From Oligoflexales bacterium (GTDB lineage: Bacteria; Bdellovibrionota_B; Oligoflexia; Oligoflexales; RGVZ01): DNA of 64,000 nt. Shown piece after piece: positions 25,724-28,823 of this stretch. The notes beneath the pieces are model-generated. The model did no database searches. It had not been told where the DNA came from and worked only from the letters and a program-made list of their open reading frames with translations. A program made the position numbers and the translations under genes. The DNA is taken from contig CANLUT010000001.1 of the NCBI GenBank assembly GCA_947494335.1, positions 434,001-498,000 of the forward strand, written 5' to 3'. The stretch's first letter is position 1; every line of letters begins with the position of its first letter.

Positions 25724-25799
<76 letters not shown>

Positions 25800-26244: not shown

Positions 26245-26679
26245 TTAAAATGTAACGTCACCAACCATCACAGCACTGTGGCCTGGGAAGGTGCAGAAAA
26301 ATTTATACTTGGTACCTTTTTTGAGCTTACTAGTTGCAAAGGACACCTCAGTAGACTCACCGCCGCCAACCAATTTTGACGCAACCACAACGGATGCGCT
26401 GGTCGGTGTGTAGTCTTTTGCTGGGCCGGCTTTTGTCGCGTCAGCGATGACATTTTTCATTTCAGATTCTGGTGCGATAACCACGTTATGTCCCATCGCA
26501 GCTTTTGGCAATTTACCGGTGTGCTTTAGCGAAAGCTTCACGTCAGTGCAGCCTGCAACAGCGATGGTTTTTGTGTTGTAGCTCATGGCGTCAGTACCTT
26601 CGACTTTGACGTCACAGGTCTTGGCGTAAGAGGCCCCAGCGATCATGGTGGACGCGATAAATAAAGCGACTTTTTTCAT
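26245..26679 (-). CDS. azu: Azurin (periplasmic blue copper protein)
   Basis: A 144-residue type 1 copper electron carrier. A signal peptide ends near SYAKT. The copper ligands fit the family pattern: His64 (GHNVV), Cys129 and His134 (FCTFPGH) and Met138. The two Cys near the N-terminus (C22, C44) match the conserved disulfide. Azurin shuttles electrons between periplasmic enzymes. Here it is cotranscribed with a rhodanese-like gene. A palindrome about 50 bases upstream of the start may regulate the pair. Confidence 0.95.
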   Translation of the reverse strand: MKKVALFIASTMIAGASYAKTCDVKVEGTDAMSYNTKTIAVAGCTDVKLSLKHTGKLPKAAMGHNVVIAPESEMKNVIADATKAGPAKDYTPTSASVVVASKLVGGGESTEVSFATSKLKKGTKYKFFCTFPGHSAVMVGDVTF

Positions 26680-26808: not shown

Positions 26809-27727
26809 TTAGAACTTGTACGTGTCTAAGAAACGATCTATCCGTTGATTAACATAGATAGGGTCATCAAGGTGGGGGCAGTGGCTACCATGGGCCATGA
26901 TCTCTAGCTCAGCCATCGGAAGGCGTTTGGCCAGCCATTTGCATTCCTCCAGGGGCACCAACTGGTCCTTCCCCCCTGCAAGGATTAGAGTGGGCGCCTC
27001 AATGGGACCTTCCAGATTGCTCAGGTCAAAATCACACAAGTCCTCTGCTAATTCGAAAAATATGTTCGGGTCTGTCGCAAAAAAGTGGCGCAGGTACTCC
27101 TCAATGTCCTCTGTTTTGGCCAAGTGGGGATTGAAGCCTTTTAAGCGGACCACCTCTCGGGCGATGGACGGCGCCATCGCGGCCGTTTTATTCACAAAAC
27201 GGACCCAGTCTGGGACCAGCTTATTGAGGGTTATCATGATTTTAAGAGCCGCCTTGCCGGTATCTCCAATTTGCATGTGTCTGTAGGGGTCACGTCCCGG
27301 TGACCCCTGCAGAACCATCCCCAGGCACCGCTCTGGGTAATCATGCGCAAACTGCATGGCCACGGTGCCCCCCATCGACTGACCAAGAATTACGGCCTGT
27401 TCAATGGATAGCTGGTCCATGACCTCCTTAAGGTCTTCGCTTAAGCCCTTAATGGTCAGCGGTCGCAGAGGGTTGCCAAGGCTGGAGGCACCGTGTCCCC
27501 TGTAGTCCATATGTACGGTCAGGCGTCCCGCCTTACGGGCGTGGGCCAATTGATATTTCCAATGGGCAATCGAGCAGCCCAGTCCATACAGAAAAACCAG
27601 AGGTGTACCGTGCCCATCGTGGACCCAGGTTTGAATTAAGGCTCCGTCTCGAAGCTCAACCGGTGATGCGGCGACTGGTTTCAGTGGTTCTGGATTGAGG
27701 TCTACTGGGATAGGGCCCCCTCGACAT
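26809..27727 (-). CDS. Alpha/beta hydrolase, start region frameshifted
   Basis: The coding region has a full alpha/beta hydrolase fold: VFLYGLGCS before the oxyanion loop, the nucleophile elbow GQSMGG, the acid GGKDQLVP and the catalytic His in GSHCPHLDDP. The first legal start codon in this frame is a TTG at 27549, inside the fold, after YGLGCS. Upstream the same frame stays open to beyond 27727 but has no ATG, GTG or TTG. An ATG at 27727 lies in the next frame and would join exactly if one G of a GGGGG run (27716-27720) were missing. The gene is therefore either frameshifted or uses an unusual start. Substrate unknown. Confidence 0.7.
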
Positions 27728-27782
27728 TTTTTCTTAAAGTCGGCCTGAAGATTTTCCGAAGACTCCGCTGAGGGAGGGCGGC

Positions 27783-28028
27783 ATGGAAAAGATTCCCGTC
27801 GAAATATTCGTAACCGAGCAACTTAACCATCCACGTTATAAATCAATTATAGCACAGATGGCGGTTAACGAGACCCTTGTGCATCTAACCTTGGTTAGAT
27901 TTTTTAAAGACCAGGGGATCAATTTTATTACCCCGGGGTTAGCATCTATTCTGGCAGATCGTTTTGCACATGAGCTTGAACAGCGTCACGGTGTGAGTGG
28001 TGTTGTGGGTCGGATGCTTCAGAAATAA
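27783..28028 (+). CDS. Small protein of 81 residues, unknown
   Basis: An ATG at 27783 has GGGAGG a few bases upstream. The 81-residue product looks helical, with a hydrophobic pattern in IIAQMAVNETLVHLTLVRFF and a basic end. There is no signal peptide. It diverges from the hydrolase gene, their candidate starts lying only 55 bases apart, so the two may share a promoter region. No family recognised. Confidence 0.6.
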   Translation: MEKIPVEIFVTEQLNHPRYKSIIAQMAVNETLVHLTLVRFFKDQGINFITPGLASILADRFAHELEQRHGVSGVVGRMLQK

Positions 28029-28046: not shown

Positions 28047-28823
28047 TTATCCGCGTGTTTGTAATAAGTGAGCCGCGATACTGACAGCAATTTCTTCGGG
28101 TGTGTTATTTCCGATCGGAAGTCCCATGGGACAATGAAATCGTTCAGTTTCTTCTCGCGTTAATCCTTCTTCGAGGAGGGTGGCGCGAATTTTTCTTGCT
28201 TTGACTGTGCTGCCGATAACGCCAATGTACGGAGCACTTTTCAATTTAAGTGCCTCGCGAACGACGACCAAATCGTGCACGTGTCCTGGGGTGGCAATAA
28301 CATGGTAGGTTTTTTCCGGGAACGTCGCGGGGATCTTTGCCAGATCATCAGTTAAAATAGTCTTTACGCGAGCGCCGTGGCGATCCTTTATTTTTCCTAG
28401 CCAATCTTCACGGGTATCGGTCACCGTAAGCTGACAATTCAAACTGACCAGCAAATTAGTTAGTGCTTGGCTAACATGACCAGCTCCGTAGATGGCAATG
28501 CTCCAGGAATCATGGATGGTGGCTTCAATGAAAATGGTTGCAACACCTCCGCACACCATCCCTAGATCCTGATTGAGATCGATTCGGTGAAGTTGAGCAG
28601 CATGTTTCTTATCCACGAGCTGCTGCTGCGCAAGTTGTATACCTTTGGCCTCTAATTTTCCTCCGCCGATGGTTCCAGCGTGAAGACCTGCTGCTGTCAC
28701 AATCATCTTGGCTCCCACTTCCTGCGGAACGTGGGCGTCAATCCGAATCATGGTCACAAGCGCGTAGCTTGTGCCCGTAAGGTCTAAATCATGACAAGTT
28801 TTTATGACGTGAGATAAATTCAC
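28047..28823 (-). CDS. xdhC: XdhC-family protein, molybdenum enzyme maturation factor
   Basis: XdhC binds molybdenum cofactor, promotes its sulfuration and loads it into xanthine dehydrogenase. The 258-residue protein has the N-terminal XdhC pattern around GTIGGGKLEAKGIQLAQQ and a C-terminal NAD-like domain (IAIYGAGHVSQALTNLL, ATPGHVHDLVVV, GVIGSTVKARK). The start is GTG. It is the last gene of the xdh operon, four bases after xdhB. Confidence 0.93.
   Translation of the reverse strand: MNLSHVIKTCHDLDLTGTSYALVTMIRIDAHVPQEVGAKMIVTAAGLHAGTIGGGKLEAKGIQLAQQQLVDKKHAAQLHRIDLNQDLGMVCGGVATIFIEATIHDSWSIAIYGAGHVSQALTNLLVSLNCQLTVTDTREDWLGKIKDRHGARVKTILTDDLAKIPATFPEKTYHVIATPGHVHDLVVVREALKLKSAPYIGVIGSTVKARKIRATLLEEGLTREETERFHCPMGLPIGNNTPEEIAVSIAAHLLQTRG

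Follow-up and report, generated by a model that had tools for sequence, protein, structure and literature searches.

A conserved alpha/beta hydrolase gene of an Oligoflexales bacterium lacks a standard start codon and may be initiated at ATC

In the genome of an Oligoflexales bacterium, the reading frame of an alpha/beta hydrolase gene is open and conserved ahead of its first standard start codon. This absence of a standard start is real, unusual within the genome, and beyond what chance would give. From the observed open frame, the missing standard start, a stretch resembling a Shine-Dalgarno (SD) sequence, and the conserved protein core, we infer that translation most likely starts at an in-frame ATC (27711-27709, minus strand). 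We hold this reading tentatively, and the weights given here to it and to the competing readings are matters of judgment. Coordinates are those of the window, the whole stretch of 64,000 nucleotides that was analyzed. The gene comprises the following features:

26809-27822, minus strand: alpha/beta hydrolase open frame, 337 codons from one stop to the next, lacking any ATG, GTG, or TTG ahead of 27549
26809-27711, minus strand: hydrolase coding sequence as proposed, from ATC 27711 onward, 300 residues (from open frame, SD energy, and AlphaFold2 model)
27709-27711, minus strand: ATC, candidate non-canonical start codon, in frame, SD energy -9.2 kcal/mol
27716-27722, minus strand: GAGGGGG, SD-like stretch that includes the GGGGG run at 27720-27716 (from sequence and SD energy)
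27547-27549, minus strand: TTG, the earliest standard start codon of the frame, at residue 55 of the protein as proposed, past strands 14-19, 25-31, and 34-41 of the model

The hydrolase frame is open upstream of its first standard start codon

The open frame begins directly 3' of a TAA (27825-27823) and runs to a stop at 26809. The first in-frame ATG, GTG, or TTG is the TTG at 27549-27547, and none occurs between 27822 and 27672. A sequence-only reading of this region had claimed that the first segments of the fold, GHGTPLVFLYGLGCS, are encoded 5' of this TTG and that no ATG, GTG, or TTG stands before them in frame. Reading of the minus-strand frame confirmed both points: the conserved core of the hydrolase has no standard start codon upstream of it in frame.

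The predicted protein is an ordinary alpha/beta hydrolase

The product belongs to the alpha/beta hydrolase family PF00561 (98.2 bits versus a cut-off of 25.8). AlphaFold2 modeling of the 300-residue product starting at 27711 (12 sequences; mean pLDDT, 84.3) yielded the three strands listed above and placed TTG 27549 within the first helix. Since three strands precede this TTG, a working enzyme would, according to the model, need a start upstream of about 27672. TTG 27549 was rejected as the start; its use would delete the three strands and a conserved GLG loop.

Residues S112, D249, and H277, which we take from the family to be the Ser-Asp-His triad, are invariant in all 12 aligned sequences. 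The model matches experimentally solved structures of hydrolases, with a TM-score of 0.78 for a PhaZ depolymerase (8ynw_A). This depolymerase and the esterases 5egn and 3om8 have the same fold, the GxSxG nucleophile loop, and the Asp and His of the triad, but share only about 24% identity or less with the hydrolase in the Foldseek list, PhaZ being the best match at 24%. Among the 25 listed of 35 NCBIfam models, no named enzyme (3-oxoadipate enol-lactonase, PHA depolymerase, and others) reached its cut-off; the PcaD model, for example, scored 110.1 versus 255.85. The hydrolase is an ordinary enzyme, of interest only in that a gene other than infC may start at ATC. Immediately ahead of the GLG loop (27588-27586, minus strand) it has Tyr (LYGLG), as do L009-L012, while L007 and L008 have His (LHGLG); His-Gly is the usual form.

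The missing start is exceptional among the genes surveyed

Stretches of this genome (864 kb including the window) were compared by tblastn with stretches of another genome of the genus, G001, and with parts of five more (1.35 Mb in total; a relative was required at E <= 1e-25). The survey yielded 163 genes with a relative and 174,165 aligned bases. In 10 of the 163, the first standard start lies at least eight codons inside the alignment. Inspection of seven accounted for them by a start after a leader or overlapping frame, or by a stretch cut at its edge; two others show 35-36% identity before the start. The hydrolase gene, with a lag of 41 codons and 83% identity before its first standard start, is the only one in the survey with a conserved pre-start stretch that neither an overlap nor a cut edge explains. 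Because it is the sole unexplained case among the 163 genes compared, its missing start is more than a chance occurrence. A smaller earlier round (85 genes) had given nine flags, eight of them explained.

The 174 kb of coding DNA aligned for these 163 genes contained no convincing broken frame (sampled stretches, open reading frames of at least 80 residues). The frame-break search, with 264 open reading frames of relatives giving a strong hit, listed two split frames in this genome; one proved to be 6S RNA and the other a match of 25-28% identity. As neither counts as a broken gene, indel errors are probably not frequent in the part sampled, and a poor assembly with frequent frame breaks was discarded as an explanation. 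The 6S RNA (L062 143-330, minus strand; RF00013, 74.4 bits) mimics a broken frame. When G001 was surveyed in turn (162 genes), three possible split frames emerged relative to open reading frames of the window's genome: C8 7061-8141, C13 37761-38230, and C14 15024-15384, the coordinates being positions in the joined survey stretches.

ATC 27711 has the strongest candidate ribosome-binding site

Three near-cognate codons of table 11 lie in frame between 27822 and 27672: ATA 27807, ATC 27711, and CTG 27684. At usable spacing their SD energies are -2.9, -9.2, and -0.1 kcal/mol, respectively; TTG 27549 has -3.3. No 16S rRNA was found in the genome sequence examined, and the anti-SD sequence behind all these energies is therefore an assumed one. 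With this anti-SD, ATC 27711 has a putative ribosome-binding site at the right distance, GAGGGGG. As this is the strongest such stretch near the gene start, the G run is part of the best candidate ribosome-binding site there.

An SD of -9.2 or better is seen for 1.2% of the 8475 near-cognate triplets in the window, and the probability that at least one of three near-cognate codons reaches it by chance is 3.5%. An SD as strong occurs at just 2 of 25 reference starts of the window (median, -4.6), a set that we picked and that includes some starts without support from a relative; the SD thus favors ATC 27711 only a few-fold. Along the open frame, codon scores stay near zero for the 31 codons upstream of 27727, turn negative in the five codons spanning 27726-27712, and average +0.23 bits per codon over the 17 codons from 27711, resembling the later coding part; with segments this short, the test is a weak one. 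A promoter and terminator scan found nothing.

Initiation elsewhere (at ATA 27807, CTG 27684, TTG 27549, or a codon outside the table 11 list) appears quite improbable. The three named codons are all in frame, but their SD energies fall far behind that of ATC 27711, and TTG 27549 carries the structural cost described above. The sequence-only reading had offered four causes for the missing start: a mutation, a slippery site, an assembly error, or a rare start codon such as CTG or ATC. The last is the best supported because ATC 27711 has its strong SD-like stretch; CTG 27684 does not share in this.

If translation starts at ATC 27711, the hydrolase gene would be intact, and GAGGGGG just 5' of the ATC, G run included, would serve as the ribosome-binding site. 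The enzyme would then be 300 residues long, of which about 13 precede the first strand. The ATC would be read by the initiator tRNA with low efficiency, and IF3 should hold it down, as for infC and Streptomyces sigR.

Orthologs in the genus have standard start codons

Of five further genomes in the genus, three carry an ortholog of the hydrolase: G001 (71% identity), G003 (66%), and G004 (55%). The two remaining genomes, 66% and 85% complete, gave no ortholog at E <= 1e-30. At the same threshold, 7 of 43 genomes of the order have a match, its own genome counted, and a search of genome contigs gave nine distant relative loci with 22-31% identity. The neighborhood contains the following genes:

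28047-28823, minus strand: xdhC-like gene, a neighbor also in G001 and G003
26245-26679, minus strand: azurin/plastocyanin-like gene, a neighbor also in G001 and G003
27783-28028, plus strand: divergent 81-residue open reading frame with no Pfam or NCBIfam match and a relative only in G004

The order xdhC, hydrolase, azurin is common to G001, G003, and the window, save for the 81-residue frame of the window, which is absent in G001 and G003. Among 55 other genomes, the sole relative of this frame is that in G004 (39% identity), where it likewise diverges from the hydrolase gene.

The three orthologs share the whole hydrolase core but differ from the window gene in having a standard start before it, as predicted from sequence: TTG in G001 and G003 and ATG in G004. 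In G001 and G003, the TTG has GGAG six bases upstream and lies 18 residues ahead of an I(V/L)LRDGA stretch; with a start at 27711, VELRDG would be preceded by 17 residues, compared with 18 ahead of the corresponding residue in these two. In G004, the ATG is 37 residues ahead of the matching stretch and overlaps the start of the divergent 81-residue gene. ATC is not a conserved start, since the orthologs use TTG or ATG. Comparison with the start sequences of relatives, proposed earlier as a check, thus supplied standard starts, but the pre-core stretches of the four orthologs are too divergent to place a lesion.

The neighboring frame and the G run

A second frame on the same strand contains two ATG codons near the start of the hydrolase:

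27656-27727, minus strand: ATG 27727, whose frame closes after 23 residues; SD energy -0.1 when confined to usable spacing and -2.5 when any position within 20 bases is allowed
27734-27784, minus strand: second ATG in the same frame, 16 residues, then TAA 27736-27734; SD energy -4.0 at usable spacing

The sequence-only reading had joined ATG 27727 to the hydrolase by way of the G run. The positions of both and the difference in frame were borne out, ATG 27727-27725 lying outside the hydrolase frame. A frameshift at the run, as its title had it, was not established: ATG 27727 is almost without an SD (its -2.5 within 20 bases is close to the background median of the window, -3.0), and in the alignment with the three same-genus orthologs neither this ATG nor the run, which lie in an extra stretch of the window, has a counterpart. 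The run moreover sits inside GAGGGGG, placed for the in-frame ATC 27711. Out-of-frame start codons near an open frame are probably not rare, which makes the joint presence of ATG 27727 and the run weak evidence on its own. Furthermore, ATG 27784 shares the frame of ATG 27727, and any lesion therefore need not sit at the G run.

Programmed frameshifting could in principle start at ATG 27727 and shift at the G run, or start at ATG 27830 and shift at an A run (27732-27727), both runs being placed where frames could join. A slippery site should be conserved in orthologs, however, and the slippage proposed earlier is unsupported because ATG 27727 and the run lack a counterpart in all three. Together with the near absence of an SD at ATG 27727, this makes programmed slippage the least credible reading, and we rejected it. 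The short frame from ATG 27830 to TAG 27704-27702 (27702-27830, minus strand) crosses the A run and ends just past ATC 27711; its termination at this TAG could couple to a nearby start.

Alternatively, an assembly or base-calling error may have altered the length between ATG 27784 and the conserved core, with an ATG really in frame. Such an error could lie in the G run, in the A run next to ATG 27727, or in a C-rich stretch that follows ATG 27784. ATG 27727 is out of frame with ATC 27711, 16 bases upstream of it, and short single-base runs occur between the two and before them. ATG 27784 overlaps the start of the divergent 81-residue frame (the two start codons overlap on opposite strands as CATG), and the G004 ortholog shows a similar arrangement, its predicted start ATG overlapping the beginning of the divergent gene there. 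In addition, long-read metagenome assemblies do contain frameshift errors (PMC13087279), which is relevant if the present assembly is of that kind. The sampled 163 genes and 174 kb, free of any convincing broken frame, and the poor SD of ATG 27727 speak against such an error, which we consider rather unlikely but retain.

The hydrolase gene shows no excess of changes

If instead a short indel or a start substitution had recently removed the start, the gene would be newly silenced or weakly expressed. Consistent with this, the start is gone while the rest is open and conserved, and the GGAGTCT found 5' of the TTG in G001 and G003 is retained in the window without the TTG that follows it. Relative-rate counts of the window gene against orthologs argue the other way: with L009 as outgroup they were 13 against 21 and 20 against 24, and with L010 15 against 19 and 14 against 24. 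None of these four counts points to excess change in the window gene. Any such mutation would therefore have to be young, and we judge it unlikely, somewhat more so than an assembly error. Both options of the sequence-only reading are thus kept at reduced weight, the lack of a convincing broken frame in the sampled 174 kb and of relaxed evolution counting against them. Taken as a one-base difference in length, whether from assembly error or recent mutation, they rank close behind the ATC start.

No decay is apparent, with no stop in 337 codons and no rate excess. With a rate of change no higher than that of its orthologs, the gene is not an old pseudogene; a very young one is still compatible with the counts. 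No dN/dS was obtained for the window gene, because its dS values to relatives are saturated.

Discussion

Non-canonical starts are rare, which counts against the reading of ATC 27711 as the start. Known cases include infC, which starts at ATT in E. coli and at ATC in Streptomyces, and Streptomyces sigR, which starts at GTC; IF3 represses non-canonical starts of this type (PMC5472188). Both infC and sigR resemble the hydrolase gene in having a conserved coding sequence without an ATG, GTG, or TTG before it, and Streptomyces infC has the same codon, ATC, as the hydrolase candidate. In those genes initiation was demonstrated by experiment, whereas the hydrolase start is deduced and its orthologs use TTG or ATG. 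Within the genus, infC has standard start codons in all four genomes examined; it was therefore dropped as a precedent, and the ATC start has none in the genus.

A more far-reaching proposal, that a metabolic enzyme, and not only infC, is kept low in an IF3-dependent manner by an AUC start with a strong ribosome-binding site that replaced the TTG of its relatives, is doubtful, and we offer it as speculation. If the ATC start is true, it would add to the few AUC starts known in bacteria, and gene finders limited to ATG, GTG, and TTG would shorten the enzyme by 54 residues, with the loss of three strands. If a one-base error or mutation is responsible, the case would become a routine annotation matter. 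Either way, the enzyme should be annotated from the open frame and not from TTG 27549.

Elsewhere in the window, a tRNA gene (25727-25799, minus strand; RF00005, 72.3 bits) is the only Rfam match above the gathering score.
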